From NCBI GenBank assembly GCA_030737835.1, contig CM060854.1, positions 15,701,213-15,765,212 of the forward strand: a stretch of 64,000 nucleotides of DNA. The letters run 5' to 3'. This DNA is from Acorus gramineus (lineage: Eukaryota; Streptophyta; Magnoliopsida; Acorales; Acoraceae). Shown piece after piece: positions 8,306 through 40,510 of this stretch. The notes under the pieces were generated by a model. The model was not told where the DNA came from. It made no database searches and saw only the letters and a program-made list of their open reading frames with translations. The position numbers and the translations under genes were made by a program. Positions within the stretch are counted from its first letter, which is position 1. The number at the start of each line of letters is the position of its first letter.

Positions 8306-8306
<1 letters not shown>

Positions 8307-15729: not shown

Positions 15730-17865
15730 TAGTCCCATCGAATGAAACACCCCACCCACTTTTCATTTTCTTCCCTATCGACTTCATCTCCTTCACTACT
15801 TCTCCTCTGAAAAACGCAAACCCTAGCGACTGTGTTTTCGGCGATCTTCACCATGTCTGTCCTGTGAAGGGCGGCGTCCGGTTTTACGACGATCAAGCCT
15901 ACGGCGATCTTGCTTTGCGTGGCAGTGGGGGAAAGCAGCGAAGCATTCGGACAACTGCATCCACCTCATCGTAGAACCAAACTGAGGTAAATAATCTCAT
16001 TTGCGACCCTACCGTATGGTCTGTGCAATGATTTTATGCTTAACTTGTTATTTGATTTGAGACTCTCATGTTTATTTTGGGGATTCATATGGTTAATGAG
16101 ATATGTGGTGTAGGGTTAAAATTCTTTTCATATCTAACCTACTATTAAAGTTGATCAACCTTCAATAGTATTTCATTAATTAGGTAACATGAAATTTTTG
16201 GTTTATAGATGACTGAGGTATATAATGTAAGTTGAGCAATACTAACTAATTGTTTGGTTTTAGTTCGTTACTTTTTTTTATTTAAATTTCTTATTTAGAA
16301 TGTGAATGCCATGGTGGTTCTCATGATCTATTTATGTAGGCGTGTCATTGTTATACGTATTTTTGTTGGGTGTTTAAACAAGGTAGACATGCATTAGGCT
16401 TTTAAATCCTTAGATGTAAACACATAATATGAAATCCATGTGAGATAACCAATTATATAAGGGTGAGAATCGTAGAGGAAAACTGATGTTTGAATAATAT
16501 ATTTATATGAAAATTTTCATTAAACAAATCGATTTTTTCATCATGTTCTATTGCATGATTTTGCTATGTAATGTCTGGTATGAATGAGTAGTTCACATTG
16601 AGTGCAGTGACTTCTCTGATCCATGCCCAACTCTATGGGTGGTCTTTGGGACAAAGTGTAATGCACTCACACTAGCCATCATAGATTATGTTTGTCCTCA
16701 TAAGAATAATAAAGAGCATTATATTTTTACAGAATCTACAAACATCAATAGTCACTACACAAGCCACTTGTTTACCTTTTTGGATACTTTAATGTGAGTT
16801 TAAACCCACTTAAAAATATATTGTCCATTAAAATAATTTGATCTATAAATCCTAATTCAACTACATACTAATTAAAACCACTAACTATACATTCACAATA
16901 TGGCATCATAGAACCTTCATGTTACAAGAGTATATGTAGCTCTCACCACATTGTAACCCAGTCAATCACAGAAAAATAATAGAATCATCGAACAAATGAT
17001 TTGTGTGGGTAGATATGAAACTTAAGGGTGAGAACCAGAGGAATATTGGGCTTTCATATATAATAATATATTTATATATGAAAATTGACATACAAAAAAA
17101 TGGCATTTTCATCATGTTCCATTGTCTGATTTTCCTATGTAATATTTCATATGAATGAGTAGTTATATGGGAATTTAACAATCTGATTCTGGGCTTACCG
17201 TAAACGAATGACATGGTATATATAAATTGTTAGCATATTTCATATGTGAATGATATGTGGGGCATGCTTTCATATATGATTTAGATTCGAAACTGGAGGA
17301 TCATATTTGTATTAGATATGCTATAGTTAAATTAATAGGTTATCAATGTGTTGTGCCTGTGTCATTTGGAGCACTCTGATCGAAAATTTGGTTACATAAT
17401 TTTTTTCCTCGAAGTTATGTATTTCCAATTTGGTATTTGGATTTGATTTTGTTAAAATCCAAGATGAAGAGGTTTAAATATGATTTTATTATGAGATGTC
17501 CAGTTTTGAGTTAGCTTTCGTACAGAAGTGGAATTAGGTCAACTGGATTCTTGTAGTAAAAGTTATGGGTATTTTTCCAAGTATACCCCGGGGAGGGAAA
17601 TTCTGGCAGCATCCCTGTTCAATGTTTAGCTCAGATTTCGGAATAGCTGGAGAGATTATTTGATCTTGGCATGAACATGAAAGTTGTAGATAATCTTCTT
17701 GGCTTTCCAACGGAATTGAAATTGTGTAATTCAGAGCTATATTGAGGAAGTTATGGCTGTTCCAGTGAAGCATGCGCAGAATTTCTAGTCAAAGGATGAT
17801 TTGGTCATTTCCATCCCTCTTTAGATATTTATGTGCAAACAAATATCTTCTTCTCTCTCTCTCTC

Positions 17866-20175
17866 TGTCACGCCCCGGGCGTCCCCGAGACGCGGCAAGT
17901 GTATATAAAATATCAGAATCTACACAGGAGGTCAATAATATCATACAAATGACACACAGACAACAAAAGCAGGGCTGACATGATATATACACCAAATGCG
18001 GATAACTAAAGACTGAATCTGTAATCAAAACACACTACAGACTCCATACATAATCACATGTCCTGTGAGAGCCAATATACATACAAGACATCCAAATACA
18101 ACCAAACGCGTGCCCAAGCACGGAAAATGATACATACAAACACAAGGGATGCTGATAGCCTCTACAACTCGCGGGACGTGGCGCTACTCCGCTACTGATG
18201 AAATCCCTCGGGGAGCTCCTCCTCCAGATCCGACTCAGATGACACTGAAGAAAATATTATGCGAGGGGTGAGCCACACGCTCAGTGAACGGCACAACCCA
18301 TGCATCACAGACAATATTGACCACAACCAGATATCCTTATAATCCACAATTCGGGTCACTTCCGCCAACCCGCCACACCCTCACCCTCACCCTTCAATGG
18401 GTGACATAGGATATTGGGACTAACTGCACCAAAAACCAACGGGTCGCTTCCGCCAACCCGCTACACCCTCACCCTCACCCTTCAATGGGTGACATAGGAA
18501 ACCCACTACACCCTCACCCTCACCCTTCAATGGGTGACATAGGATTTTGGGACTGACTAGGCTGTTGGTCACCCTTGGTCCACCGATAGTCTCTCCTCCA
18601 CTCCGTAGGCCGCCTGGTCTACTCCCACATTCAGCACAGTCCGTCCTAAATCAGGAGGTGCCTACTGATGGGAGCCCTCTGTCAGGAAGGCCTGTCTAAC
18701 GCTGGGGTAGTCTCTACCGGATCCAACGAAGGGAACAGAACAGCCTACCCATCGCATATGATCCACTTGGATCCGCAGACGGCACATTATAACAACACTA
18801 ATGTTCTGAATTCCTCAGAACCCACCAAAGAAACTCGGGAGGGCAGCGTGAGTCCCCGTTATAGGACACCCCGACAACCAAACAAGGAACACGGTGTACC
18901 CTAACCCGGGTCTCACCGCTGTCCTCGCAAGGCCCCTCCCCTATAATATTCACTATAACATGCAATGTAAACAAATACTAGCATTTAATTTAATAAATAA
19001 ACTAGTAGGGCACATGCATCGGTCGGGCTTCCTAGCATGGAAACAGGGGACATGCTGCATGGCTCATACACATCCTAAGGGTGCAAGTCCCTAACATGCA
19101 AAGTCTAGGGTAACATGCATTCTACATTTAAATCATGCTCGCATGAATTACATATTATTGCAGGTTAATATACATCCATGGCGCCCCAGGAGAGGTCGGT
19201 ATACGCCCAAGTGCGTATAACACCTCTCTACTGGGTTGGATTGTCCCACTCACCAGAGATCGGGGTCGTCGCGCGACCGTCCGTCTAGATCTGCAAGACA
19301 GACATTCAATATGGTGAGAAACCACACAATTTATACGTAGAAATGCCTAGAAATACCCAAAACTCGGATGAGCATGCATACGGGCCCGAACCCTCGGGCA
19401 GCCATTCGCATGGCCCCCTGCATGCGCACGCACGAATGCGCACGCACGCACACACCCCGGCACCATCGGCGCACTGCCGCGCGCTTGCCCGCGGAGCGCC
19501 CCTGCCCTGCTCGCCTGCGCGCCCAGCCTGCCGGCCCGGCCTGCCAGCGCGCACAGCCCAGCCAACCTGCTCCGCACGCCTCCCCCTGCACCCCCCGAGC
19601 GCACGCCCGCGCGCACGCCCACGCGCACGCGCTCGCGCGCCCAGCAAAACGCCCCGATCTACCTCCACCGCCGAGATGGCTTAAATCAGGGACGAAAAGA
19701 GGGCGGACGGACGGGCAAAACTCGCTGGAATTGGGATTTGAAAACACCGGAGTGTAGATCGGGACCCGATCTACACTTCCTAGGTTTTGGGTTTTTGGGT
19801 TTGAGGGGTCTAAGGGCTTCAAAAGCAAGAAAAATGGGTAAGGGGAGAGAGGGAGACCATTGGGGGAGAAGATGAATAGTGCCCAAAGATATTTTCTCAC
19901 CCACTTATATAGCCGGGTCACTTAAAAACCCAGATACGCCCCGAAACTGTGAAATTTCGGAAACGTTACCGGAATTCAACGAAATTTTCGTGAGAGGTCT
20001 AAAATGACACCAGGACACCAAATATGCAGTTAGATTTTCAATCGGAGTCCTCTAGCTCAGGACGATAGCTAACAGTCCAAAAATTAGCGGTACCGATCGA
20101 AAAACCGAAAAAAATGAAAAACTGCCAGAACGCTCCAACGGTTACCAGCAGGTTAAAAGTGACACATATATAACA
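17866..20175 (-). mobile_element. long LTR unit A (solo LTR), sense orientation minus, nested in unit B
   Basis: Seen: starts TGTCACGCCCC, ends ATATAACA, 2,310 bp, flanked by CTCTC (17861-17865 and 20176-20180). The duplication lies in a CT microsatellite, so alone it is weak evidence, but both ends match units D and E. On the minus strand a TATATAAG box lies at 19903-19912, 265 bp from the sense end. It is followed by a CpG-rich island (19385-19645), a conserved block with splice-like borders (19254-19290) and three copies of a CCCTCACCCTTCAATGGG subrepeat (18360-18540). It is shorter than its relatives. Non-coding. As it sits inside B it is the younger of the two. Confidence 0.8.
19385..19645. 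other. CpG-rich alternating purine-pyrimidine island of unit A
   Basis: Dense CGCGCACGCACGC-type sequence, in sharp contrast to the AT-rich surroundings. It creates overlapping Arg/Ala/His-rich open frames on both strands, which I do not take as genes. Alternating purine-pyrimidine stretches of this kind can adopt Z-form DNA in general; that is not shown here. Confidence 0.75.
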
Positions 20176-20604
20176 CTCTCTCTCTCCCTCTCACTTCCAC
20201 GCCTACATCTTGAGCTCTCTCTTCCTCTCTCTCAAGGCCCCCAAGTGTTTGTGTTTATTCCCCATAGAGAAAGAGATGGTGAAGGAAGAAGAGAAGGTTT
20301 GTGTGGGTGTGTTGTGTTGTTGATCCTCCTTTCTTAAGTCCCTTTTCATGATCCTTCCCCCCCGTGATTGCAGCCAAGAAGGAGGCTGAGGGTGGTGGTG
20401 TTGGTGGTGGCAGTTGAGGTGGTCGTCGGTGCGTCGAGGGCCCCCGAACCTCCCCCTTCCTTTTCCCCTCCCAAGGTGAGCCTTTCCCCTTCTTTTCTTG
20501 ATTTTTATGGCTTAGGGTTGGTTGGGAGGGTCATGCATGCTATGCATAGGGGTTAGAGTGTGTGTGAGGGGTTGGGGAGGGTTAAAAAAGGGTAAGGGTT
20601 GGCT

Positions 20605-21050
20605 GGGCGCGCGTTTGGGGTTGTCTGCGCACGTGCGCGCGCAGGCGGGCGGTGGCAGGCGCTGGTGGGCACGCAGACGCGCGCGAAGTGGTCGCGCGGG
20701 TGCGCGCGGGTGCTGGAGCGAGCGGGGGTGCGCGCGGGAGCGCGCGCGCGCGGAGCAGTGCGCCTGGGCGCGGGGCTGGGGACCAGTGCGCGCGTGCGTG
20801 CGTGCGCGCAGGGTGCTGCGCGGGGGCGCAGTGCGCGCGGGTACGCGTTGGGCTGGACACGCGGTGTGCACGGGCGCGCGCGGCAGCGCGTCTGGGCGCG
20901 CGGCAGTGCGTCGAGGGTTTGTGCGTGCGTGCGCATTCGTGCGTGCGCGTGCGGGGGGCCATGCGTGTGGCTGCCCGAGGGTTCGGGTAGGTGTCGGGGC
21001 ACTCGGACTCGCGTGCGTACGTGCGTGCTCGCATGCGTGCGAGTCCGTAT
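20605..21050. other. CpG-rich alternating purine-pyrimidine island of unit B
   Basis: About 450 bp of GCGCGCGTGCG-type sequence between a donor-like site (about 20474) and the acceptor-like TTGCAG at 21134-21139. Open frames of up to 201 codons occur on both strands and in several frames at once, as expected from low-complexity GC-rich DNA that rarely forms stops. Confidence 0.75.
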
Positions 21051-21139
21051 GCATGCTTGTCCGAGTATTTGGTATTTCTAATGGTTTCTTTGTGTAAATT
21101 GTGTTGCTACTCACCAAGTTGGATGCCCCTACCTTGCAG

Positions 21140-21178
21140 ATCTCGTCGGATGGGATGCGCGAGGTCCTGGGTCGTATG
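21140..21178 (+). other. conserved 39-nt block with splice-site-like borders, unit B
   Basis: CTTGCAG stands directly before it and GTGAGTGG directly after. The same arrangement is found in all five LTR units: 19254-19290 (A, minus), 27772-27808 (C, minus), 35523-35558 (D, minus) and 37225-37260 (E, minus). Each block begins ATCT and contains CGG(A/T)(C/T)GG and GCGCG. It could be a mini-exon of an LTR-driven leader RNA, or a conserved protein- or RNA-binding segment. Splicing is inferred from sequence only. Confidence 0.5.
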
Positions 21179-24163
21179 GTGAGTGGTTCGATTCCAATCT
21201 CCCCCCCCCCCTCTCTAGGGATGCGCTCGACCCGCGTAGACGCGCGTTGCGCATTGATGGGGCCCCCTAGCTATAATATGTGGATACTATGTAATGCATG
21301 ATTAATATGATGTAACCACGCCATATTAGACCTGGCATGTTAGGGATATACATCCATATATCATGTATAGAGGCCCATACATGCCTAGACACCATGTCCC
21401 TTGATTGGAAAGCCCCGACCTACGCATGTTTCCCATTTAGTTTAATTTATTTAAATCAAATGTGAGCATATTGTTATAAGCATGCCTTAGATAATATTAT
21501 AACCTTGTTGTTATAATATATGTTTTTCCGCATCTTAGTTATGCGCCCTGGAGGAATTCTTGAGAATTCATGACATTAGTAGTGTTACAAATCGTTGTCG
21601 ACGGATCCAAGAGGATCATATCCGCGTGAGTAGGCTGTCTTCCCCTTTTGGTTGGATCCGATGTAGGGACTCCCCGGCGTTGGAAAGCTGACCTAACAGA
21701 GGGCTCCCATCTGTAGGTACCTCCGATGCGTCAGACAGTGCTGATCGTGGGAGTATACCAGGTAGAGGCTACGGAGTGTGGGAGAGGCTACCGGGTGGAC
21801 CAGGGGTGGAGAGCGGTCTAGTTGAAAAGGCCCATGACACCCCTTTAAAGGGTGAGGGTGGGGTGGGTCGGCGATGTTACGACCCTCTAACTTGTGTAGT
21901 TACTCCCGTATAGGGACTATGACTACTTTAAGGTTAATATGAGTGTGTTGATTGTTGTTATGCCCGTGTTTTGATATCTCGATAAGTGAGTATCGAGAGT
22001 AGTTGTTTTCCATTGGGTTTGCCTTGCGAACATGGGATCGTTCTCCCCTTCGTTGGATCTGACGTAGGAACTTCTCGGGTTTAGTTGTCCTGACAGAGGG
22101 CTCCCATCCATAAGTACCACCGATGCATTCGGATGAGTACTGATCGTGGGAGTATACCAGGTAGAGGCTACCCGAGGAAAGGGCTACTGACGGACCAAGG
22201 GCGTAGAGCGGTGAGTTGACGAGATCGGGTTGTAGATACTACCCGGGAGAGGGTTAACGAATGATGTTGCGGGCGTGGGAATCGTTCTCCCCTTCGTTGG
22301 ATCCGAGTAGGGACTTCTCGGCAATTACAGCTGTCCTGACAGAGGGCTCCCGTCCGTAGGTACCACCGACGCGTTCGGAAGGGTATTTATAGTGGGAGTA
22401 TACCAGGTAGAGGCTACGCGGGAGAGGCTACCGGTGGACCAAGGGTGTAGAGCAGTCTAAGCCTCTTCCAAAAGTCCCAATAGTCTCCCTCCTGGAGTGA
22501 GGGTAAGGATGAGGTGAAGACACATCGCCGTGTGACCCATTCGTTGTTCGACCGTTCCCATAGTTGTTGGGTCCGGTCTTGTATCAATGTTTAAAGGCAT
22601 CGTTTGAGCAATTATCTAGATGTAGATGATCTAGTAGTGTTGTGTAGACTAGTAAATCCGGGTCTCTTTGACCGACGGTATGGTCTCTCCCCAAAAGTCC
22701 CAAAAGACTCCCTCCGGGAGTGAGGGTGGGGGTGAGGTTGGTCGCGCCGCTGCGTGACCCTGTTATCCATTGGGTTTCTACCCATGTTCTCCTTGAAAAA
22801 GGAAATTGATTATGTATTGAACTGTAGTATGGTGATTGGTTTCCAGCCACTCACTGAGCTTGTAGCTTACCCCTCGCATACTGTTTCTTTTCAGGGGCAG
22901 TGTTGGGCGTGGAGCTAGAGCTTTCCTGTGGCGTGGTCTTATGGGCGTGGAGCGTTCTGCCGGCGGGTGGCGAGTGCGAGGCTGTCAGCATTCCTAGAGT
23001 CATTTTATGCTTTGTAAATCGTGCATGTGGCACAGGTTGTATTTTCTTTGGTCTAGACTTGGCTCTCACAGGACAGTGATTGTGTATTCGAGTCTGTAAT
23101 AATGTTTTTGATTTACAGACATTGTTTATATATTATGCTTCTGCTTTTCAGTTAGTTATCATTATCTTGCTTTGCCGCCTTGTGTATTGTTGTTGGAGTC
23201 TTTATTGACCTCAGGTATTGATAGCTGATATTTCATCTTTGCCACGTCTCGGGGACGCCTGGGGCGTGACACAATGAACATTGGGTCGGTGTGTTATTTG
23301 CTCTCTTTCTTCTTACATTACAGTCGATAACTTCTCCAATTGATTGTTCATATTTAACTCTTGCTGTATATGTCAACAATAAAGTAGTTGAATGACAAAT
23401 AAAAACATATATGTATTTGTTCTCCTTTGTGAGTGTTATTAGCATTCGTTTAATTTTAGGCATGGCTCTTAAGTATATCCAGGTTGGTTTACATTTTCTT
23501 TTGCATCTCTTGGACCCATCTATTATTATTCCTAAATGAATGATTGTTTGGTTACATGTTCTACTCATTCATATCCCATCCAACACCAATCTATATGCAA
23601 GCATACATTGATTTTAGGCATAATTTGCATATGTGAATACACACATAGAGTAGTTGAATGACGAATAAGTTACATATATGTTTACTTCTCCATCTAAAAC
23701 CCCCTAAAACATCCCTCGGATTGTTGCATGTGTATAATCAACCCCCACTGAAATTGAATCATATAATAATATATATGATAATTGGTTTATGTTAATGGTG
23801 AAATCTGATGTCAATGACCAATTAATATATTTTATGTTCTATGATATTTTTTAGTGTTATTATGTGTTCATTTTTTAGCATAATAGCCCTTAACTCAACC
23901 TTCATGCTTTAGATTATTTTTCGCATCTTTTGAAACTATGTCATGATAAATGAATGATTTATAGAAACCTTCTACATCCATCGGTGCATCCCATGCTTGT
24001 GTATAACCAACCCTAACATATAACCGAGTATATATTGATGTTTACACATCAGTTGTTAATTCATGTACCTGAGGTCAATGGCCAAAGAATATATTTATGT
24101 GCTTATGTGAGTTAGTCTTATTCGCAATCATATAGATGTGAATGACCATTGAATATATATATA

Positions 24164-24193
24164 CCTGTGTGTGTGTGTGTGTGTGTGTGTGTT
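24164..24193. repeat. (TG)n microsatellite in the PIF/Harbinger element
   Basis: A TG repeat of about 26 bases lies between two copies of a roughly 80-bp segment (GTGAGTTAGTC...CATATAGATGTGAATGACCAATGAATATATATA) at 24107-24160 and 24196-24252, so the microsatellite sits within a short duplication just upstream of ORF1. Confidence 0.8.
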
Positions 24194-24296
24194 CATGTGA
24201 GTTAGTCATTTTTGCATTCATATAGATGTGAATGACCAATGAATATATATATGTTGTTGGTATCTTAATCCATTCCATGATGTCCAATGTGTCTAG

Positions 24297-27200
24297 ATGT
24301 CAAAGATGAGCCAGCCTCGCCTACGCATGGCATCCAATAAGAATCGGATTGGAAACTGGACCAACCCGATGGATGCTTGTTTGGTGGGGTTACTTGTAAA
24401 TCAATTTCAACAGGGTAATTGCGTGAAGGGAGTCTTTCAAAACAGTTCTTGGAAGACTATCACCACAACCTTGAACTATCGAATTGCTATGACTTTAGAA
24501 ATGAGTCATTGCAAGAATCGTTGGAAAGTGTTGAAGCAAACCTATCACCTATACCAAGAACTTAGCAACAAAACAGGATGGGGTTGGGATGATGCGAGGA
24601 AAATGCCTATACTGGGAGATGCACAAGACTGGGATAGGGTCATATCGGTATGTACAGTTGATGATAGTTTTGTTTTGTCATGGTCTCCTAATATTAGATG
24701 TCAAATTAAAGTCGTTGTCTGCTTATCCTGTGCAGAACAATACCAAGTTTGGGTTTTGTTGGGACAAGCTATTTATATGGTTCAAGAAATTCTCTATGAT
24801 ATGTGGGAACTCCACATCCAAGGGATTCCATGCCCATGCTTCCCTCATCAATGAGGATGAAGATGACAATGACAATGAAGGAGACTCAACCCACAAAAAT
24901 AGGTTCGATTCACTGCATATAGAGAGACCATCGGTGGAGGATTACTTCACTCGAAGGAATTCATGTGAGAACAGGTGGGGGACCGGCACACCAATAGAGA
25001 TACCTGATGAAGGTGAACCAACCTTTAGGAGAAAGGGTAAACGTTCCATAGCGTCTACTGCTTCTGACATAGGGGAGGATGATTTACAGATTAAAAAAAA
25101 AACGATCATCTGGGTCTAGTAAGAAGGTGAAGAACTCAATTGCTATTGAACGATACATGGCTGAGTTCATTAAAATTGGAAGGCGAAGGGTGGACGTTGC
25201 AAAAGAGTACTTGGAGAAGGATTATTGTCATGCCCCATGGCGGCCGTCCCCGAGACGTGGCAATAATGAAGTATCAGCTATCAATACCTGAGGTCAACAA
25301 AGACTCCAACAACAACACACAAGGTGGCAAAGCAAAGATGAATGATAACTGACTGAAAAGCGGAAGCATAAGATATCAACAATGTCTGTAAACCAAAAAC
25401 ATTATTACAGACTCGAATACCCAATCACTGTCCTGTGAGAGCCAAGTCTAGTCCAAATAAAATACAACCTGTGCCATATGCACGATTTACAATACATAAA
25501 ATTACTCTAGGACTGCTGACAGCCTCGCACTCGCCACCCGCCGGAAGAACACTCCACGCACATAAGACCACGCCACAGGGAAGTTCCAGCTCCATGAACA
25601 ACACTGCCCCTGAAAAGAAACAGTATGCGAGGGGTGAGCTACAAGCTCAGTGAGTGACTGGAAACCAATTACCATTACAACAGTTCAATGTTAAGGCAAT
25701 TTTCTTTCAAGGAAAAACATGGGTGGAAACCCAATGGATAACAAGGTCACGCGGCGGCGCGACCAACCTCACCCTCACCCTCACTCCCGGAGGAAGACTC
25801 TTGGGACTTTTGGGGAGAGACCATACCGTTGGTGGAAGAGACGCGGAATTACTGGTCTACACAACACTACTGGATCATCTACATCGAGATAACTGCCCAA
25901 CGATGTCTTTGAACATCGCTACACAACCGAACCCAACAACTATGGGAACGGACGAACAACGAATGGGTCACGCGGCGATGTGTCTTCACCTCATCCTCAC
26001 CCTCACCCTTTAGAGGTGACATAGGACTTTTGGAAGAGACTTAGACTGCTCTACACCCTTGGTCCACCGGTAGCCCTTTCCCCGGGTAGCCTCTATCTGG
26101 TATACTCCCACGATAAGTATGCTCCCGAACGCATCTGTGGTACCTACAAATGGGAGCCCTCTGTCAGGACAGCTTTTCCAACGTCGGGAAGTTCCTACAT
26201 CGGATCCAACATAGGGGAGAACGCTTTCACGCTCACAATATCATTCGTTATCCCTCTCCCGGGTAGCCTCTACCTGGTATACCGCTCTACACCCTAACGG
26301 ACGAACAACGAATGGGTCACGCAGCGATGTGTCTTCACCTCATCCTCACCCTCACCCTTTAGAGGTGACATAGGACTTTTAGAAGAGACTTAGACTGCTC
26401 TACACCCTTGGTCCACCGGTAGCCCTTTCCTCGGGTAGCCTCTACCTGGTATACTCCCACGATCAGTACGCTTCCGAATGCATCGGTGGTACCTACGAAT
26501 GGGAGCCCTCTGTCAGGACAGCTTTTTCAACGCCGAGGAGTTCCTACATCGGATCCAACGAAGGGGAGAACGATTTCACGCTCGCAATATCATTCGTTAG
26601 CCCTCTCCCGGGTAGCCTCTACCTGGTATACCCCCATGATCAGTACATCTTGCCGCATGCATCGATAGTACCTACAGGTGGGGGCCCTCTGTCAGGACAG
26701 CTACAACCCGGGCCGCTTCAACACAGACAACATTGGGAGGAAACACTCCATGTTCGCAAAGCGAACCCAATGGAAAAACAACTACTCTCGATAATCACCT
26801 AACTTAATGCCAAAGCTACCGGTTTAACAAAACCGATACAACAAATGAATTCTCCTGAATTCCATTCAAGTGCATCACACGGATGCAAGGGCGATTACAT
26901 CGCTCGCACACTAACTAATGAGGTACATCCCAACGACGGGTCGTACCCACGCCTATTTCAGATAGGCCTAATTAGTTTTAACATGTGCGAATATATAACA
27001 GGAGAATCATATCATAGCTATGTGCATGAACCATATGCATGATCATCTAACAATTGACTATAAGGGTAACCCCTAACATGGATTTACATCATAAACAACA
27101 AATCATACAACATGCATACAAGGTATGGCCCACTTAAACATGCATACATGGCCATTAATCATATAAGCACACAAGGCATAACTTAAGCATGCATTGGATA

Positions 27201-29725: not shown

Positions 29726-30968
29726 TCTATGGATTCCTCGACAAGGAAAAGACTTCGGTCTGAATTTTTTAGACAATTTTTTGAAGAGGATGAGGAATCA
29801 ATGTTCTTGGAGATGGCCTATGTACTCGACCATTTCAGGTATAGGGTTGAACGTCAATCATTGATAAGGAGACCGATGAGAACTGGACCCTTGTCAGGCC
29901 ATACATTTGTACATGAGTTGCTCCAAGGACTTGAGGCTAGGGCATATGAGAGTCTGCATGAGTCCTCCAATGTTCTTAAAATTGAGGGATGTCTTGATCA
30001 ACAAGGGTCTCCTAAAAGACACTACCAACCTCACTTGTACCGAACAGCTTGCAATCTTTCTTCATGCGCTTGGCCATGGTGTGTCTAATAGGGTATTATC
30101 GGAACACTTTCACTATTCAGGGGAGACAATAAGTAGACACTTCAATGTTGTCCTCAAAGCAGTGGTGTCCCTAAAACGAGAGTACATCAACCTTTCACAA
30201 AATGATGTGCAAGTCCATCCTTATGTGAGGCATAACAAAATCTTTGACCCATATTTTAAGGTGAGTTCATACTACCCATAACATGTTCTATTCTTATTCT
30301 TTCTCATATATGTTATATCAATCTTATGTAAATACATGTGTTCTTCAACTATAGAATGCAGTGGGGGCAATTGATGGGACGCACATCCCTGCACTTGTCA
30401 GAAAAAAGAAGGGATGGATATCACAGAACGTGATGGCCGCTTGCTCGTTTGACTTGCAATTCCAATACGTCGCCGTTGGTTGGAAAGGTTCAACGGCCGA
30501 CATGAAAGTCCTTAGATGGGCATTGGAGAGGGGGGGTTTTAGTGTCCCAGAAGGTATATTCATCCATATCATTGTCAACCAGTTTTTTTAACTTGTGCTA
30601 CATCATTAATTTGCATTGAACTAGTAAAAATCCTTTCTACCAGAAAAATATTATTTGATTGACTCTGGATACACGAACATTGATAAGTTTCTTGCACCCT
30701 ACCGTTCTCATAGATATCATTTGCTGAGTTTTTGAATCGCAGATGTAATAGATATAGCGGTCCAAATGAACTCTTCAACCATAGGCATGCACAATTGAGG
30801 AATGTCATTGAGCGTGCATTTGGAGTTCTAAAAATGCACTTCAAACGTCTTAGATGCACTCCATATTATTCATTCAGAACCCATACTAGAATTGCACTTG
30901 CATGTTGCATACTCCATAACTTCATTCGTAGGGAGGAAGGGTCAGATATTTTATTTAATATGAGTTAA
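29726..30968 (+). CDS. PIF/Harbinger DDE transposase (HARBI1-like), three exons, apparently disrupted
   Basis: Role: cuts and joins the transposon at TWA targets. Exons: 29726-30260 (ATG at 29729 just after a TGCAG acceptor), 30355-30553, 30644-30968, with matching phases. The DDE triad is visible: Asp in GAIDGTH (30373-30375), Asp in YLIDSGY (30661-30663), Glu in NVIERAFG (30810-30812). ELFNHRHAQLRNVIERAFGVLK is the family signature, and an N-terminal HTH-like part (GETISRHF) precedes it. Two single-base frame slips are apparent, one near 29955-29965 and one in a T run near 30729-30733; either decay or sequence errors could explain them. It lies downstream of ORF1 in the same orientation, as usual for two-gene PIF elements. 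Confidence 0.85.
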
Positions 30969-31075
30969 GATGAAATGGATGGAGTTGGGGATGTCAGAGA
31001 TGAAGGAAATACTGACGTGGCAAACAAGGATAATGTTGGAGGGGCTCAACTGCAAACAATGATTACTGGTCAATT

Positions 31076-31087
31076 GGGGGGGGGGGG
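31076..31087. repeat. poly(G) run of 12
   Basis: A simple G tract about 110 bp past the transposase stop codon. No function seen; run length may be uncertain. Confidence 0.8.
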
Positions 31088-31373
31088 TAGGAATGTAAGT
31101 GAAGGTTGAATTGGAGTCCTTAAATTACATAAAATTTGAATTTAACAATCCTTGATGTGTTATTCATCTAAATATGGGTTTTCTAATTGTAGAGGCAGTG
31201 AGGTGGTGGCGTTTTTGGTAGTTTGGTTTGTCAATGTATTGAACTCCTGTTGCCTTTTGCATTCTATGATATTTGTTTAGTTATATACAACATTCATTTG
31301 GTTGATTGTGTGATTTGAAATAATATTACTCATTATATTTTCTATTTATGTAACAAGCACTTGTTTCCATTGG

Positions 31374-31685
31374 ATGGGAAATTATCCATATTACACGGTT
31401 GCAAAGGGAAGGAGGCTTGGAGTGTACGATAATTGGGCAGCCTGTCACGCGCAGGTGCATCGCTTCAGAGGAGCTACATTCATGGGTGTGAACGACATCG
31501 ACTAGGGGTTCGCATTCATAAACTCCATGAATGCAAGCCTACAGTCGAATGCACCTATCGTCGTGTCGGATACCACACCCCCTCCATCAGATGAGACCAA
31601 TGGCATGAACAGACCACTGCTATCAGACACTCCTCTAGCTACTGCAGACCTTCCAGATCTTACACCAACCGAGATACTGCCATAG
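31374..31685 (+). pseudogene. viroplasmin / RNase H1 N-terminal-like frame inside the PIF element
   Basis: Seen: the frame reads NYPYYTVAKGRRLGVYDNWA and then CHAQVHRFRGATFMGVND...FAFI, ending near 31685 after a Ser/Thr/Pro-rich tail. Known: the small domain shared by eukaryotic RNase H1 N-termini and caulimovirus P6 has the pattern YY.V..GR..GIY..W..C..QV..F.GA.Y..F. It binds RNA:DNA hybrids or double-stranded RNA in RNase H1. It lies about 400 bp past the transposase, in the same orientation and inside the transposon's inverted repeats. The frame is interrupted once, so it is probably not functional as it stands. It could be a third transposon gene, a captured host RNase H1 piece, or an exon of the transposase transcript. 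Confidence 0.55.
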
Positions 31686-31699
31686 TCCTCACAGCCAGT

Positions 31700-33096
31700 G
31701 TACCACTAGTTGTCGTATCGTGTAGAACAGTCACGTCCCATTTCAGGTGAGGTTCGAGCCACTATTTCCTTATATGAGGTGACTGTTCATGGGATTCTAG
31801 TTATGCCACTCTTTTTGGGTTTGTTTGCATCACTTATGGTGCTTGTTGGATTTATTTTTGTTCTATTGTTTATTTTGTTCCTGCGTCATTGATAGTATGT
31901 AGGGTTTGGGATGGTCTTACAAACTCAAAACTTTTATTTTGTGATGCCCACTAGTTTATGGGCTAATTTTGTGGATTATTCAGTTTGTATAGATGTTTAA
32001 ACACCACATTCTGTTTATCCAATATGCTAATTTTGATTTAACCTTGACAATACAAGAGGTTAATGTGAATATGAACTTATGAATGTATGTTTGTGATGAT
32101 GTCTTTCATGTCTAATATTATATAATTTAGCCTTCTTATAACATGCCATATGTATGCGTTTGGATATGTGTGTGATCATGAAATTTATATATATGTTAAC
32201 CTTTGATAGCATGGATGTCATAGTTCCAATTAATATATTGTGTCAATGACCAACCTTCATGTTCACCATGGTTTCCCAGATAAGAAGGGATTTTGGATCA
32301 ATGTGAAGTGGTTGTTTCATGTGAGTGATGTGTTTTGCTAACTTCAATTTCCTAATATCAAATATACAGTATATTTGCAATTATTACTACTTAGGTTATT
32401 TCTGTATATATCGTTATTTATATATTTACTTGGTTTATACAAAAAAAAAAAAACACAATATAGGTGTATAAATAGCTTAGTGGACCCTATTGTAAGTTAC
32501 TTGAAAATTGACATATAACATATATAAGCAAATTAAATGAAGCAATATATAAGATGACTAGGGCTATTAGATACAACAAAATTAAGATTGGCAATGAAAT
32601 TTGTTAATAATTCTCATTCATTTAATTAGACAAAAATAAAAACATTTTTATTTATTACTATTTATGACCAATCGATTGAGTAAATTTAATTAACACATAA
32701 CCCATAATTGGAATCATTACAAAGTAATTGGAATCAACACTAAGCATACATAAAGTTAATTGTAAAAAATATTTGAAGGTCCACTATAAAATATTACATA
32801 AGATGGACGATTCAGATTTAATTTCATTAATCATGGATTGATATATATCTATCAACTAAACCAAAACACAACTTATATTTCAGGGGCAAAATTGACATTT
32901 TAAAAATAATAACTCCTTATCCATCCCTTATCAACCATTTATTCACAGTTTATTCTGGGTTAACCAAACACCAAAAATCTGAATTTTACGTTTCCCAATA
33001 AGAATAACAAAAAATACAACCAAACATGGATATGCTTATTCTACCAAACACTGTTATCTATCCCAGTATAACTATTAAGACTGAATAAGGCAATTC
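31700..33096. other. 3' part of the PIF/Harbinger element, non-coding
   Basis: AT-rich sequence between the viroplasmin-like frame and the right inverted repeat. Near the end (32900-33100) CTTATTCTACCAAACACTGTTATC and related motifs mirror the left subterminal region (15350-15530: GAATAACCCTTATTCGCTGTTTG, GCTTATCAGGGCTTATC). These are likely subterminal binding sites for the transposition proteins. No further gene seen. Confidence 0.6.
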
Positions 33097-33117
33097 CACT
33101 TCCCAAACGGGGGGTTA

Positions 33118-33599
33118 TATTATATGAGATAGGTGGATGCATAAATTAAAAAAATGTTAATAAAGATTTTTTTAGAAAAAATATTGGGTGTCTAAACCAG
33201 AGAACATACAAATCAAACAGATTTAAACTAGTCTTTATCTACACACGACGTGCGTGTAAATAAAAAATATTTGGAAAAGATTGCTCTAAACCAACACCCT
33301 CAATTTTTGTCAACCAATTTATATGTTATATAATATATCATGTTATATGTGCATAAATGATTTAATGAAAATTTATAATGAAGTTATACATAAAAGAGAT
33401 GTAACAATTGAAAATAAATTTTATACATATATATCCCCCAACCAAACATATAATGTTAAAATCTCCCATTTGAAACTCTAAAATCAGCAATATCCCTTGA
33501 TTAAGAAAAAAATGGTATTTATGTACAATTTACACTCTTTTGAAGGGTGAGGAGGATATTTTCCCCTTCAGTTAAACTATCAGTTTTCGAAGCCTTTCT
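33118..33599. other. AT-rich stretch between transposons, nothing recognised
   Basis: No frame, repeat border or RNA gene was found. ATATAT tracts are frequent. Confidence 0.6.
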
Positions 33600-35784
33600 T
33601 CATGAACCTGGACCCGATTATAAATGGATCCTGCACTCATAAAGAAATTAGGAGGACACCAGTGTGGTGCTAGCCAAAGGGCCTCCGAAAAGATGTATTG
33701 GTCGGGGGTTCAAAACAAAACTCACTTAAATTTTGGTGGCTTGAAAGAAGGAAATCAGATTTGATTCGATACCTTAGCCTTTTGAATTACTTCTCTTTTT
33801 ATAGGGTCACCTTAGCTAGATTGCCGCTTCCACTATCCTTTGGCTGTTATAGTCGTTTCTCCATTAATCACTTAGTGGACGACTTTGGTGGAAACTGTCA
33901 CGCCCCACGGCGGCCGTCCCCGGGACGCGGCAAGTGTATATAAAATATCAGAATCTACACAGGAGGTCAATAATATATCATACACAAACAACAAAGAGGC
34001 TGACATGATATATACACCAAATGCGGAAGCAAAAGACTGAATCTGCAAATAAACATACTACAGACTCGATACTCAATCATCTGTCCTGTGAGAGCCAATA
34101 TACACAAATACAACTGAACATATACAAACACGTGCCAAGCACGGAAATCAAATACATACAGTCAAGAAGGGATGCTGATAACCTCTGGTACTCGCGGAAC
34201 GTGGCGCTGCTCCGCTACTGAAGGAATCCCTCGGAAAGCTCCAACTGCTGCTCCGGCTCTAGCTCAGGCTCAGTGACCACTTGGGAGAAACATATGTGAG
34301 GGGTGAGCCACACGCTCAGTGAACAGCACAACCCATGCATCACAGACAATATTTACCATAATTCCATTATTTATCCAGCCTCTAAGACATAACAACATAA
34401 TCCAGTGGTTCGTACCTCGCCGAACCACCACACCCTCACCCTCACCCATCAATGGGTGACATAGGCTATTGGGACTGATAATCATCCATTCACAAATCCA
34501 GTAGGTCGCTCATCGCCAACCCACTACACCCTCACACTCACCCTACCACGGGTGACATAGGATTTTGGGACTGACTAGGCTGTTGGTCACCCTTGGTCCA
34601 CCGATAGTCTCTCCTCCACTCCGTAGGCCGCTTGGTCTCCACCCACAACTTCAGCACAGTCCGTCACAAAAATCGGGAGGCGCCTAGTGATGTGGGTCCT
34701 CCGAAGGACGGCCTTTCTAACGCTGGGGCAGTCTCTACCGGATCCAACGAAGATGACAGAACAGCCTATCCATACGCATATGATCCACTCGGATCCGCCG
34801 ACAACACATCTCTACTACTCAAATGTCATGAACTCTTCAGAGTTCCTCCAGGGCGCATAACCAAGATGGGGGGCACACGTACAATAAACGCAAGGGTGTA
34901 ATATCGTTGGGGGAAATAACTCGGGAGGGCGGCGTGAGTTCCCGATATAGGATACCCCGACAACCAAACAAGGAACACGGAGTACCCTAACCCGGGTCTC
35001 ACCGCTGTCCTCGCAAGGCCCCTCCCCTATAATATTCACTAAATATGCAATAATCATACCAGTTATATAACATTACTTATAATATTAATGGGACTAGAAA
35101 CCTTGGGAGGGCAGCATGAGGTCCCGATACAGGACATCCCGACAACCAAACAAGGAACACGGAGCACCCTAACACGGGTCTCAATGTTGACCTCGCAAGG
35201 CTCCTCCCTATAATATTATCTAAGGCATGCGATTTAACATACACTAGCATTTAATTTAATAAATAAACTAGTAGGACGCATGCATAGGCCGAGGTTTCCT
35301 AGCATGGAAACAGGGGACATGGTGCATGGCTCATACACATATCCTAAGGGTGCAAGTCCCTAACATACAAAGACTAGGGTAGCATGCATTCTACATGTAA
35401 ATCATACAAGCATGGATTACATATTACTGCAGGTTAATATACATCCATGGTGCCCCAGGAGAGGTCGGTATACGCCCAAATGCGTATGACCCCTCTCTAC
35501 TGGGTTGGATTGTCCCACTCACCGGCATCTAGGTCGTCGCGCGACCGTCCGTCTAGATCTGCAAGACAGACATTCAATATAGTGAGTTAAAATCCACAAC
35601 TACTACTAAAGACATCAAAGATACCTAAACCCACAACAAACACCCAACACTCGGGCAAACGTGCATACGACCCGCACGCACGCTAGCCCGAGCACCCCGG
35701 CTCACTCCCGCACCCCCGGCAACCACTCACACGGCCACCCGCCCCCGGATGCGCCGCCGCGCTACCGCCCGCGCGCCCCGACGC

Positions 35785-38700
35785 TGTCACGCCCCAGGGC
35801 GGCCGTCCCCGGGACGCGGCAAGTGTATATGTGATATCAGTGACAGGAAATCAATAATAAACCAGAAACAATCACTAAAATGACACACAGATAAAAGCAG
35901 GGCTGACATAATATATACACCGAATGCGGAAGCTAAAAGACTGAGTCTGTAGTCAAAAACATACTACAGACTCGATACATAATCATAAGTCCTGTGAGAG
36001 CCAACATGCCCATATATATACACAACAAAATCCAAATACAATCCAACTAAGTGCCCAAGCACAGAACATATACGTACAACAGAAAGAAGGGTGCTGATGG
36101 CCTCAAAACTCGTGGGACGCGGCGCTGCCCTCTGCCGGTGTAGTCGCTCGGGAAGCTCCTCCCTCAGAGATCACTGAAAAGGCAATATGCGAGGGGTGAG
36201 CCACACGCTCAGTGAATAGCACAACCCATGCATACAGTTCATATTAACCACATTTAATCAATTCATAAGCCACAAGTGGCATAATATCACCATCCGGGGG
36301 TTCGTTCATCGCCGAACTCCATACCCTCGCCCTCACCCTCACCCTCAACAGGTGACCTAGGATGTTGGGACTTAGCGGGTTGATAATCATCCATTCATAA
36401 ACCTGTGGGTCGTCGCATCGCCGGCCCACCATACCCTCACCCTCACCTCTCAACAGGTGACCTAGGCTCTTGGGACTGACTAGGCTGTTGGTTACCCTTG
36501 GTCCACCGATAGTCTCTCCTCACTCCGCGGTTGTTTGGCCACTCCCATGTTCAGCGCAGTCCTTCCAAGTCAGGAGGCGCCTACTAGTGGGAGCCCCTGC
36601 ACGGGACAACCTGTCTAACGCCGAGGTAGTCTCTACACGGATCCGACGAGTGGAACAGAACAGCCTATCCATCGCATATGATCCAATCGGATCCGCTGAC
36701 AGCACATCTCTAAGACTCTAATGTCTCGAATTCCTCAGAATTCCACCAGCGCGCATAACCAAGATGCGGGGAACATGCATTTAGTAATCATAATACAAGG
36801 GAAAATAGAGACCTTGGGAGGGTAACCTGAGATCCCGATGTAGGACATCCGACAACCAAACGAGGAACACGGAGTACCCTAACCCGGGTCTCAATGTTAA
36901 CCTCGCAAGGCCCCCCTTATATTCCCTAAGCATGCTATCTATTATTACAGTTCGCATTTAATTAAATAAACCAAACTAATAGGACGCATGCACAGGTCGG
37001 GCTTTCCTAGCATGATAGCGAGGAGGCAGGATGCATGGCTCATGCACAATCCTAAGGGTGCAAGTCCCTATCACACAATCTAGGGTGGCATGCAATTCTA
37101 CACACACATCATGCTTACATGGATTATAAAATAACAGTTAATACAAGCTATACGCCCCAGGGGAGAGCGGTACACGCCCAAAGCATGTAACGCCTCCCAA
37201 ACTGGGTTGGGTTGTCCCACTCACTGGAAATCGGGTCGACGCGCGACCGTCCGTCGAGATCTGCAAGACAAGGTATTAACTGGTTAGAATAAATCCACAA
37301 TTATCCCAAAAATACATAACACACAAACAAACATCCAACACCCCCCCCGGCAACCACCGCACGGCCGGCCACCACCCGCACGGCCACCCGACCGCCCGGA
37401 CGCGCCGCCGCGCCTCAGCCCGTGCACTCCGTGCACCGCCCGGGGCCCCGCGCGTCCACCGAGCCCAGCCGCGGCAGCCCGCACGCGCCCCGCACGCCGT
37501 GCGCATGCTCCACGCCCCGCGCGCGCCCCGCGCGCACCTCCGCCGCTCCGCCGCGCCCCGCGCACGCCTCGCGCACGGCTCCTCGCCCCGCGCCTCCTCC
37601 GTGCGCGCCCCAGCACCCGAGCGCTCCGCTCAGCACCTCCGCCAGCACCTCTGCGCGCACCTCGCGCGTCCAGCACCTCCGCCAGCACCTCCGCGCGCAC
37701 CTCGCGCGTCCAGCACCTCGGCCAGCACCTCCGCGCGCGCCCAGACCAGCTCGCCATCAGCCCCTCGCGCACAGCACCACCCGAGCAGCTCGCACGCCTC
37801 GCACCGCCGCGACCAGCTCCCCCGAGCGCACGCCCGCGCGCACGCTCGCGCGCACGCCCAGCCGGCTCTTGTGCTCGTTGCCTGTGCTGCCTGAGGCCCC
37901 CAGCTCGAGCACGCCAGCCCAGCCCGTCCCGCGCGCCCAGCACGACCAGCCCCACGCACCAGACCCGCGCACACCCACGCATACGCCGCGCGCACGCACA
38001 CCCGCGCACGCACGCGCGCATGCCCGCGCGCGCCCGGCCTGCGCGCTGCCTGGCCGCTGCCGCTGCTCCCTGCTGCCCGGGACAGTCCCCCAGCCTGCCG
38101 AGCGCCTCCAACCACCTCTCCCACTGCCCCGACCACCTCCAACCACCTCCGACCACCCTCCGACGCCCCCCACCGCCACCAACCACCTCCCAAACACAAA
38201 ACCCTCCCCTAGCAATCATCTAGACAAGAAATAAGAGGGAAAAGAGGCTTACCGAGGGGAGGAAGAGGCGTCCGGTGGATCTCCACGCGCCGAAACCTTT
38301 CCCACAAGCCTTCTCACGCCCCGATCTATCACGGCCCTTGATTTGGCTCGAAACAGAGGAGAGAGAGGGGAGGTCGGGGAGGCTAGGATCGTCGGAATTC
38401 GAATTTGAAGACACCGGAGCGTAGATCGGGACCCGATCTACACTTCCCGTGCTTTAGGTTTTTGGTTTTGAGGGGTGTAGGGGGCTCGAACGGAAGAAAA
38501 ATGGAGGAGAGGAGAGAGAGAGTTCTAGTCGGGATGATGATGAATAGTGACGAGATATTTTTGATTCCTTTTAAGTAGAGCGCGACTTAAAAACCCGGAT
38601 ACGGCCCGGAACTGCGAAATTTTTGCAAACCATGCCAGAATTCGATGAAATTTTCATGAGTGGCTTAAAATGGCACCAGGACACATAATATGCAGTTAGA

Positions 38701-38841
38701 TTTTCAATCGAAGTCCTCTAGCTCAGACGATAGCTAACAGTCTGAAATTACGCGGTTCCGATCGAAAACCCTAAAATTTTTAAAACTGCTAAAAATGCTC
38801 CAAAGATTGCCAATAGGCCAAAAAGTGACACATATATAACA
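35785..38841 (-). mobile_element. long LTR unit E (solo LTR), sense orientation minus, nested in unit D
   Basis: Seen: TGTCACGCCCC to CATATATAACA, 3,057 bp, flanked by GACGC (35780-35784 and 38842-38846), inserted exactly within the CpG-rich island of unit D. On the minus strand: donor-like CTCGGTAAGCC (about 38250), CpG-rich island (37340-38200), conserved block (37225-37260), and two CCCTCACCCTCA subrepeats (36320-36470). The TATA motif present in A and D is not evident here. No second LTR or coding region. Younger than D. Confidence 0.85.
37340..38200. other. CpG-rich island of unit E, the longest of the five
   Basis: About 860 bp, strongly GC-rich, with an internal short repeat (CAGCACCTCCGCCAGCACCTC and CGCGCACCTCGCGCGTC) at 37630-37740. 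Open frames of 311 codons (minus) and 270 codons (plus) overlap almost fully and consist of Arg/Ala/Gly or Pro/Ala/His repeats; I treat them as by-products of composition. Confidence 0.75.
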
Positions 38842-38846
38842 GACGC

Positions 38847-39330
38847 ACTGCCGCACGCACGCGCACGCTCGAGCGCGCCCGCGCGCACCGCGCGTTCAGC
38901 CCAGCGTGCCCCCGCGCGCACTGCACGCACGCCCCAGCACGCGCGCGCACTGGTCCCCAGCACCGCGCACACTGGTCCCCAGCACCGCGCCCAGGCGCAT
39001 GCCCAGGCGCCCTGCCCAGCACCCAGGTGCCCAGCCCGCGCGAGCGCACGCCTGCGCGCGCCCGCGCTCACTCCCGCGCACACCCCCGCTCGCGCCAGCA
39101 CCCGCGCGCACCCGCGCGCTCACTCCCGCGCACACCCCCGCTCGCGCCAGCACCCGCGCGCACCCGCGCGCCCGCTCCGCGCGAACCCGCGCACCCGCGC
39201 GCACGCTCCCGCGCGCGACTGCCTGCCCGACTGCGCCTGCCAGCGCCCAGCTCCACCCGCGCGCACGCCCGCGCGCACGCGCGCGCGCCCCTGCCAGCTG
39301 CTGCGCTTGTGCTGCTGCCACCAGCGACCC
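38847..39330. other. CpG-rich island of unit D, larger half
   Basis: GCGCGCACCCGCGCGCTC-type sequence with a short tandem duplication of CTCACTCCCGCGCACACCCC at about 39067 and 39119. The smaller half (35640-35784) lies on the far side of unit E. Confidence 0.7.
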
Positions 39331-40510
39331 TGCCCGAGCACCTCAACCACCACCCACCGGCCACCCCAAGGCCTCCGACCACCCCCCACAGCCCTCCGAC
39401 GGCCACCCACCGCCGCCGATCGCCTCCCAACCTCATTTCCACCCTCCTAACATACATCTAAGCATGAAAAAGAGAGAAAAGAGGCTTACCAAGGGGAGAA
39501 AGGGAAGTCCGGTTGCTCTCCGCGCACCGAAACCTCTCCCAAAAGGCTTCCAATGCCCGGATCTACTCCCACCTCCAAGACAGCCCAAAACAGAGGAGAA
39601 GAGAGGGGGGACGGAGGGGCAAATCTCGCCGGAATCTGGATTTGAAGACACCGGGACCCGATCTACACTTCCTAGGTTTTGGGTTTTAAGCTTTGAGGGC
39701 TCTAGGGGGGTCAAAAGTGAGAAAAAGAGAGAGGGGAGAGAGAAAATGAAATTGGTAGGGATGATGAATAGTGTTTTCGAAATTTGATCCCACCTTTATA
39801 TAGTGTGCAACTTAAAAACCCAGATACACCCCGGAACTGCGAAATTTTGGGAACGTTACCGGAATTCGATGAAATTTTCGTGAGAGGCCTAAAATGGCAC
39901 CAGGACACCAAATATGCAGTTAGATTTCCAATCGGAGTCCTCTAGCTCAGGACGATAGCTAACAGTCCAAAAATTAGCGGTTCCGATCGAAAACCGAAAA
40001 AAAACGAAAAACTGCCAGAACGCTCTAACGGTTACCAGCAGGTTAAAAGTGACACATATATAACAGAAACCCCCACGTGTTAATGAGGCATGTCGTGCCC
40101 AATAATTACCAACATCGAGTAATCAGTGGGCTTTAACTGTCCGCCTGGCAGTTATAGGCGTTTATGGCCCTCTGACCATTTCTTTGGCTCTGCTCGTAGC
40201 TCTTTGGCCTGCTTGTTCGTCTATTATGTCTTTGAGTGTGTCTGTGAGGTGAAAGATCGCCTGACTAGACCTCTTGTCTGGTTGTGTCTCTTCTACTCGT
40301 TTGCGAGGAGTAAAGTCGTCTGACCAGATCTCTAATCTGATCGTGCCTTAACTGCTCGAGGTGACATTTGCCTATGAGATGTCTGACTGTCTGACTAAAC
40401 CCTTGATCTAGTCGTGCCAATGTGATCGGGAGTGTCATCATGATATCTTGGATTCGGATCCGGGTTTGCGGGCTTTGGTTTTGACGGTCCATATCCGTTT
40501 TATCTTAACA

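Follow-up and report, generated by a model that had tools for sequence, protein, structure and literature searches.

Solo LTRs of Acorus gramineus share a conserved splice-like block and may form three-exon, two-intron units

Five solo long terminal repeats (LTRs) in the window, the 64,000-nt stretch of Acorus gramineus DNA analysed here, share a block of 36-39 nt whose two borders, one acceptor-like and one donor-like, are invariant in all copies. Based on the order of the signals around this block, the LTR itself is predicted to be a transcription unit with three exons and two introns, a reading to which we give slightly better than even chances, and the sequence suggests that each solo LTR could make spliced RNA. 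Transcription, its start site, splicing and a division of labour between two RNAs we infer as follows. Downstream of a TATA box, some 292 nt inside the LTR, transcription would begin; the leader formed by exon 1 would be C-rich and about 290 nt long, intron 1 would contain a GC-rich island, exon 2 would be the 36-39 nt block, and intron 2 would be an ATG-dense stretch of 1.0-2.2 kb. Exon 3 would start 377-389 nt before the LTR end and, in a full-length copy, would continue into the element body. The spliced RNA would serve as message and the unspliced RNA as template for new DNA copies.

Five solo LTRs and their conserved block

Read directly from the DNA were the units with their ends and target duplications, how the motifs are ordered and how well they are conserved, the spacing of the TATA words and the ATG counts. 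The initial annotation had spoken of five long LTR units; all five are LTRs, and the description was refined in that they are solo, with A interrupting B and E interrupting D. Each has TG...CA ends and a perfect 5-bp target duplication, that of A being less telling since it sits in a CT-rich stretch.

17866-20175, minus strand: unit A, solo LTR, 2310 nt, inserted in B, target duplication CTCTC
17349-23271 (17349-17865 and 20181-23271), plus strand: unit B, solo LTR, 3608 nt without A, target duplication CAATG
25226-29127, minus strand: unit C, solo LTR, 3902 nt, target duplication ATTAT
33896-40065 (33896-35784 and 38847-40065), minus strand: unit D, solo LTR, 3108 nt without E, target duplication GAAAC
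35785-38841, minus strand: unit E, solo LTR, 3057 nt, inserted in D, target duplication GACGC

The LTR ends are presumably like those of Tekay-type Ty3/gypsy elements (chromovirus). Exact-pattern scans of viral and prokaryote contigs for further copies gave 0 matches, as expected for a plant repeat, and no Rfam family matched across the window at gathering thresholds.

The block was found in every unit just as first described, preceded by CTTGCAG and followed by GTGAGTGG, always in one orientation with respect to its unit. It is the predicted exon 2:

19254-19290, minus strand: block of A, 37 nt
21140-21178, plus strand: block of B, 39 nt
27772-27808, minus strand: block of C, 37 nt
35523-35558, minus strand: block of D, 36 nt
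37225-37260, minus strand: block of E, 36 nt

The pattern CTTGCAG-N30-45-GTGAGTGG had five matches in the window, one in each unit and none elsewhere, and 0 in 100 dinucleotide shuffles. The five matches are homologous copies; they count as a single origin followed by conservation and not as independent hits. That the borders should be better conserved than their neighbours had been set beforehand as a check, and this was found on the five copies in the window. In a local five-way alignment of A-E (246 columns, the borders being 7+8 of them), 15/15 border columns were invariant against 46/192 in the flanks (upstream 17/74, downstream 29/118) and 19/39 in the block; with columns treated as independent, Fisher's test gave p = 2.8e-9 against the flanks and 2.1e-4 against the block. 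The difference from the flanks also holds within A/D/E (15/15 vs 86/174) and within B/C (15/15 vs 119/188). Read in the splice sense, the aligned part contains the block donor as its sole donor-like column conserved in 5/5 and CTTGCAG as its sole acceptor-like column. The GT after the block (donor 2) is present in all five units. By U1 pairing, the block donor ranks 13 in E, where it is weak, and below the 14 listed sites in C, and both results count against the model.

The block with its borders could instead be a conserved DNA or RNA element, such as a protein-binding site or a packaging or dimerisation signal, whose ends merely look like splice sites. Conservation does continue past the acceptor into the block (CTTGCAGATCT), and a palindromic core, GTCGCGCGAC, was noticed by eye in A and D; this core is, however, missing from E. 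The borders are also not the sole conserved spots, because five other words of at least 9 nt are common to all units. These words lie outside the GC island, two of them (15 and 16 nt) are longer than CTTGCAGATCT, and such other conserved words are not splice-like (for example CGGTGGACCAAGGGT), which speaks for this alternative and was counted against the exon-intron model. On the other side, the block is invariant in just 19/39 columns whereas both borders are fully so, and a same-sense donor upstream and acceptor downstream complete an intron-exon order. We consider this explanation unlikely.

Promoter-like signals and predicted exons and introns

A TATA word followed at a spacing of 29-31 nt by the initiator-like word CACTATTCATC was found in A, D and E, in the sense of the splice motifs, with the TATA at LTR position 262-263 and the initiator-like word at 292-294. 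No TATA is present at the corresponding place in B or C, which counts against the model. A bacterial promoter scan of E was set aside as uninformative for a plant.

19904-19912, minus strand: TATA box of A, CTATATAAG; CACTATTCATC starts 31 nt further on
39794-39803, minus strand: TATA box of D, CTATATAAAG; CACTATTCATC starts 30 nt further on
38569-38578, minus strand: weaker TATA-like word of E, CTACTTAAAA; CACTATTCATC starts 29 nt further on
38253-38549, minus strand: predicted exon 1 of E, 297 nt, 0 ATG, donor GTAAGCC next
39490-39773, minus strand: predicted exon 1 of D, 284 nt, 0 ATG, donor GTAAGCC next
20181-20475, plus strand: predicted exon 1 of B, donor GTGAGCC next; start nominal only, with A inserted just upstream
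37261-38252, minus strand: predicted intron 1 of E, 992 nt, 73% G+C, T-rich ends
20476-21139, plus strand: predicted intron 1 of B, 664 nt, 67% G+C, T-rich ends

The predicted exon 1 has no ATG in D and E, against 3.2 and 2.9 expected, and 2 in B against 3.7. The latter was counted against the model, as was the finding that U3 is also ATG-poor (1 in A and 1 in D, 5.5 and 5.1 expected), so that ATG scarcity is not confined to exon 1.

Donor 1, GGTRAGCC followed by T-rich sequence, is kept in B (CAAGGTGAGCC), D (CTTGGTAAGCC) and E (CTCGGTAAGCC). The consensus proposed at first, (C)(A/T)(A/C)GGT(A/G)AGCC, was right in placing a donor in these three units; the third letter (A/C) does not fit D. 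The donor is mutated in C and deleted in A, a loss that counts against the model. Clean intron loss in A was ruled out, because the deletion removes part of exon 1 together with part of intron 1. The model places the GC island of B, D and E inside intron 1. Plant introns are described as having more U and less GC than exons, which the cited passages use as a criterion (PMC3735527). No such difference was found here: intron 1 has 67-73% G+C in B and E, the T fraction is 0.18-0.22 in intron 1, 0.28-0.29 in intron 2, 0.25-0.30 in exon 1 and 0.35-0.37 in exon 3, and the intron ends alone are T-rich, which was also counted against the model.

Downstream of the block, the predicted features are:

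18245-19253, minus strand: intron 2 of A, 1009 nt
21179-22894, plus strand: intron 2 of B, 1716 nt
25610-27771, minus strand: intron 2 of C, 2162 nt
34280-35522, minus strand: intron 2 of D, 1243 nt, acceptor AAG not CAG
36174-37224, minus strand: intron 2 of E, 1051 nt
17866-18244, minus strand: exon 3 of A, to LTR end
22895-23271, plus strand: exon 3 of B, to LTR end
25226-25609, minus strand: exon 3 of C, to LTR end
33896-34279, minus strand: exon 3 of D, to LTR end
35785-36173, minus strand: exon 3 of E, to LTR end

Acceptor 3 lies at a near-constant 377-389 nt from the LTR end in all five units and reads CAG in four; the AAG of D was counted against the model. The word TTTCTTTTCAG, noted earlier near the far end of B, is indeed there, but not in B alone: C has it too, and the corresponding position in A, D and E holds an AG. 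Every unit has a branch-like YTNAY word at both acceptors, 23-29 nt upstream of acceptor 2 and 23-25 nt upstream of acceptor 3. The acceptor rule (a branch-like YTNAY 18-45 nt before AG) was set after the fact; over the five pieces, 39 sites comply with it in the splice sense against 19 in the opposite one, and since so many other sites pass, passing is weak evidence by itself. The word TTGGCTCTCACAGGAC, common to all five units, was ruled out as the last acceptor, because it passed the rule in C alone. Intron 2 contains 27-72 ATG, above expectation in each unit. It is kept in all five copies, as would also be expected if nothing were spliced, and this counts against the model.

The joined predicted exons of B and E contain no long frame (from ATG, at most 43 aa in B and 40 aa in E), and from these frames a protein-coding role of the predicted exons was rejected. 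The same result weakens the idea that the LTR acquired a host gene's 5' end, first introns included, now a decaying structure without present use. The order of promoter, leader, intron and small exon is that of a plant gene, and donor 1 is already gone in A and C; on the other hand, the borders are kept in both subfamilies despite diverged flanks. This origin is very unlikely in our judgement. For the splice-flanked multi-intron leader of the initial annotation, the border conservation, the same-sense promoter-like signals, the branch-like words, the second acceptor and the T-rich intron ends are favourable; splicing itself we infer.

Orientation of the LTR

Another reading is that the LTR runs in the opposite sense, so that the splice-like words would be antisense and due to chance or serving antisense transcripts. 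One unit end reads TGTCACGCCCC or TGTCATGCCCC, the opposite end TGTTATA or TGTTGTG, and the alternative sense is the one in which TGTCACGCCCC comes first. Because a TG start and a CA end exist both ways and there is no internal region carrying a primer site, the orientation is assigned tentatively. The LTR end, alone or joined to a primer site, was sought as printed letters in the open-access literature and gave nothing relevant. In the opposite sense one donor-like word is conserved in 5/5 units, and a TATA-like word stands close to the LTR start in A and D; E has a broken form of this word, B and C lack it, and no acceptor-like column is conserved in 4/5 in the aligned part. The TATA-initiator-like spacing favours the splice sense, and the opposite orientation seems quite improbable to us.

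Known systems and meaning of the predicted unit

We know of no sequence relation between the units and the R-U5 intron of SIV/HIV-2. The likeness is one of layout: according to the cited passages, which report RNA evidence, SIV/HIV-2 has a functional intron in the R-U5 region, hence inside an LTR-derived leader, but it is a single intron in a lentivirus, whereas two introns and a very small exon are predicted here in a plant element (PMC1766366). Functional introns that divide RNA between roles are described for BARE1, EVADE, Ogre and the sunflower elements Tyran and Varan. In BARE1 the intron is part of gag, in EVADE the protease domain is spliced out, and sunflower isoforms have truncated GAG frames; unlike the introns predicted here, none is described inside an LTR in the cited passages (PMC3735527, PMC12786077, PMC7730604).

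Among LTR-internal or leader introns of plant retrotransposons, the open-access passages found contained no case closer than Revolver, a dispersed repeat of about 3 kb in rye and other Triticeae with three exons and two introns proven by cDNA (PMC2851119). Judged by description and not by sequence, the multi-intron layout has a precedent in this repeat, which is related to LARD LTRs and partly similar to the solo LTRs of LARD elements (PMC2851119). Revolver has its TATA at base 221 and its cap at 261 (262-263 and, for the initiator-like word, 292-294 here), exons of 342/88/292 bp (about 290/36-39 predicted here, similar in order and size) and introns of 750/1237 bp (664-992/1009-2162 predicted), and in both cases variation lies mainly in exon 1 and intron 1. 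Its exons and introns are cDNA-proven, whereas those of the units are predicted and only the signal order matches. Revolver encodes 139 aa, while the units lack such a frame (B and E checked); it is filed as class II, with no target duplication mentioned in the cited passages, whereas the units have 5-bp duplications; and TGTNAYGCCC stands at both its ends but at one end only in the units (PMC2851119). Because both Revolver ends carry this motif, it was dropped as orientation evidence. The LARD LTRs of barley, likewise judged by description, resemble the units in being long (3130-4960 bp), solo and noncoding; they share stretches with the introns and exon 3 of Revolver and lack its exon 1 and part of intron 1 (PMC2851119).

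These comparisons suggest that Revolver, filed as a class II element, is worth re-examining as a possible solo LTR. A wider proposal, which we put forward tentatively and hold to be rather doubtful, is a class of plant retroelements whose LTRs are complete, portable, TATA-driven genes of three exons and two introns, each solo LTR potentially being a spliced noncoding unit, with Revolver as the expressed Triticeae branch. In the literature cited, known introns of plant LTR retrotransposons sit in or between coding parts, and LTR-borne introns would differ from them. If the prediction is true, an intron-bearing LTR must retain unspliced RNA for reverse transcription, so that the choice between message and genome RNA becomes testable, and solo LTRs could supply neighbouring genes with ready-made promoters, leaders and splice donors.

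Solo LTRs and neighbouring sequence

The window resembles nuclear DNA of a plant: outside the repeats, G+C content was mostly 27-45% in 1-kb windows, and a decayed PIF/Harbinger-like element is present. The five repeat units (A-E) are solo LTRs, each between 5-bp direct duplications:

17866-20175, minus strand: unit A, 2310 nt, duplication CTCTC, within CT-rich sequence
17349-23271, plus strand: unit B, 3608 nt without nested insert, duplication CAATG
25226-29127, minus strand: unit C, 3902 nt, duplication ATTAT
33896-40065, minus strand: unit D, 3108 nt without nested insert, duplication GAAAC
35785-38841, minus strand: unit E, 3057 nt, duplication GACGC

B holds A and D holds E; by similarity, two subfamilies were distinguished, A/D/E versus B/C. 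In the splice sense (the direction in which CTTGCAG, a short block and GTGAGTGG follow one another), the LTRs start with TGTTATATATG in A, D and E, TGTTATACCTG in C and TGTTGTGCCTG in B, and finish with GGGGCGTGACA in A, B, D and E and GGGGCATGACA in C. The LTR end presumably resembles that of Tekay-type LTRs.

Unit C was probably inserted into the PIF/Harbinger-like element (about 24.3-31 kb), pieces of which flank it at 24297-24854 and 29880-31502. They include one Myb/SANT-like frame (PF12776, 7.6e-17), DDE_Tnp_4 in broken pieces (PF13359; 1.5e-10 at 30714-30965) and, after these, a frame for the N-terminal domain of RNase H1 (PF01693; 31314-31502, 8.1e-12). About seven 77-bp units form a tandem array at 42486-43076. 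Below Pfam's cut-off were CLP1_P-like (8.2e-4) and Methyltr_RsmB-F-like (1.4e-4) frames at 8096-8473 and 63237-63782, which are possible host-gene pieces, and a zf-RVT-like frame (8.7e-5; 46887-47447, minus strand), perhaps a decayed LINE-type reverse transcriptase.

Conservation of the block borders

The initial annotation had reported the block, with CTTGCAG before and GTGAGTGG after it, in all units, and the search bore this out: CTTGCAG-N30-45-GTGAGTGG had five matches in the 64 kb, one in each unit and none elsewhere, and no match in 100 shuffles. Since the copies are homologous, conservation rather than match count is the test of the motif. In a five-way local alignment of A-E (246 columns), the borders were invariant in 15/15 columns (7+8), against 17/74 upstream and 29/118 downstream, so that the comparison with neighbouring sequence proposed in the initial annotation favoured the borders in these five copies (Fisher p = 2.8e-9 for borders versus flanks, with columns and copies not independent). 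The block itself was invariant in 19/39 columns, and the flanks in 39/160 after removal of CpG columns. The two longest invariant runs in this local alignment were CTTGCAGATCT and GTGAGTGG. Within subfamilies, the borders again had 15/15 invariant columns, versus 86/174 flank columns in A/D/E alone and 119/188 in B/C alone. Across the whole LTR, however, CGGTGGACCAAGGGT, AGGGTGAGGGTG, TTGGCTCTCACAGGAC, TCACTGAGC, GAGTCTGTA and GC-island words are also common to all five units; border conservation is therefore high, but not unique. TTGGCTCTCACAGGAC (16 nt; 18060-18075 in A) lies near the LTR end and CGGTGGACCAAGGGT (15 nt; 18571-18585 in A) within predicted intron 2, both exact in all five units.

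The 3324-column alignment, which starts no more than 250 nt upstream of the block acceptor and runs to the end of the LTR, was scanned for splice sites. Four donor-like columns were present in at least 4/5 units in the splice sense, only the block donor reaching 5/5, together with one acceptor-like column, CTTGCAG (4/5); in the opposite sense there was one donor-like column (5/5) and no acceptor-like column. By U1 pairing, the block donor ranked first in A, second in the block-holding pieces of B and D and 13th in E; in C it was not among the 14 sites listed.

Predicted exons and introns of the LTR

The most likely reading of these sequence features, held with moderate confidence, is that the LTR is a transcription unit with a predicted three exons and two introns. 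RNA would start behind a TATA box; exon 1 would be followed by intron 1 containing the GC island, exon 2 would be the 36-39 nt block, and after the long intron 2, exon 3 would run on into the element. The spliced form would serve as message, and the unspliced form as template for further copies.

TATA words in the splice sense (CTATATAAG in A, CTATATAAAG in D, a weaker CTACTTAAAA in E) lie 262-263 nt from the LTR start, with the initiator-like CACTATTCATC 29-31 nt further on and CT-rich sequence next. Plant core promoters are arranged in this way. No TATA was found at the matching place of B and C, where the sequence has diverged. The donor-like word with T-rich sequence after it, noticed previously in B, D and E, was recovered as putative donor 1: CAAG|GTGAGCC in B, and CTTG|GTAAGCC in D and CTCG|GTAAGCC in E, about 285-297 nt past the initiator-like word. 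Compared with mononucleotide shuffles, predicted exon 1 contained no ATG in E (2.9 expected, P 0.052) and D (3.2 expected, P 0.026) and two in B (3.7 expected).

Downstream of donor 1 is the GC-rich island, T-rich on its far side; in 5/5 units a YTNAY word precedes the AG of CTTGCAG by 23-29 nt. Read in the splice sense, the island is rich in G (50% in E, 37261-38252; 44% in B, 20476-21139), and its CpG observed/expected ratio was 1.21 in E and 1.31 in B, versus 0.57-0.82 in predicted intron 2. B has kept this high CpG although it is old enough to hold A; the island may have been spared methylation decay or maintained by another process.

Predicted intron 2 measures 1009 (A), 1716 (B), 2162 (C), 1243 (D) and 1051 nt (E), the length in C being partly explained by a tandem duplication of a 349-nt unit (25947-26632, 94% alike). 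It has more ATG than expected in 5/5 units (27, 38, 72, 41 and 34 in A-E). In predicted exon 3 the count of 5-8 is close to expectation, so that splicing would not yield a leader free of ATG. The far-end acceptor described for B was found there, but is not peculiar to B: acceptor 3 is TTTTCTTCAG in A, TTTCTTTTCAG in B and C, GCCTTTTCAG in E and TTTCTCCCAAG in D. It lies 377-389 nt from the LTR end, and a YTNAY word precedes its AG by 23-25 nt. The column scan missed it, probably because gaps displace the site between rows; copy by copy, it passed the acceptor rule in 4/5 units, D failing because of its AAG. The rule passed 39 splice-sense versus 19 opposite-sense sites in the five pieces and is thus weak on its own.

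Several observations speak against the transcription unit: predicted intron 1 has 67-73% G+C (B, E), predicted introns are not richer in T than exons, donor 1 is lost in A (deleted) and C (GATAAGTC at the matching place), and D has AAG at acceptor 3. Confidence was further reduced because U3 is ATG-poor too (one in A, 5.5 expected; one in D, 5.1 expected) and because the end motif shared with Revolver has no bearing on orientation. Intron 2 is retained in 5/5 copies and the intron 1 region in B, C, D and E; therefore none of the five was copied from fully spliced RNA, which fits the proposed unit and equally an LTR that is not spliced at all.

Comparison with known systems

In the plant elements BARE1, EVADE and sunflower Tyran and Varan, splicing is described within or between coding parts (PMC3735527, PMC12786077, PMC7730604), and a functional intron in R-U5 is reported for SIV/HIV-2 (PMC1766366). 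The closest known system in the literature searched is Revolver, a repeat of the Triticeae measuring 2929-3041 bp, whose TATA lies at 221 and cap at 261. Its cDNA shows exons of 342, 88 and 292 bp and introns of 750 and 1237 bp, and its variants diverge chiefly in the first exon and first intron (PMC2851119). Units A-E share with it one end motif and the layout, which is predicted here and cDNA-derived in Revolver. Unlike Revolver (PMC2851119), they lack the second end motif, and the 139-aa frame is absent in both copies checked (B, E); they were therefore not classed as Revolver.

The layout is real, well conserved and was rightly noticed in the initial annotation, whose spliced-LTR interpretation, with this partial precedent, is plausible and unproved. 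The units may work like Revolver.
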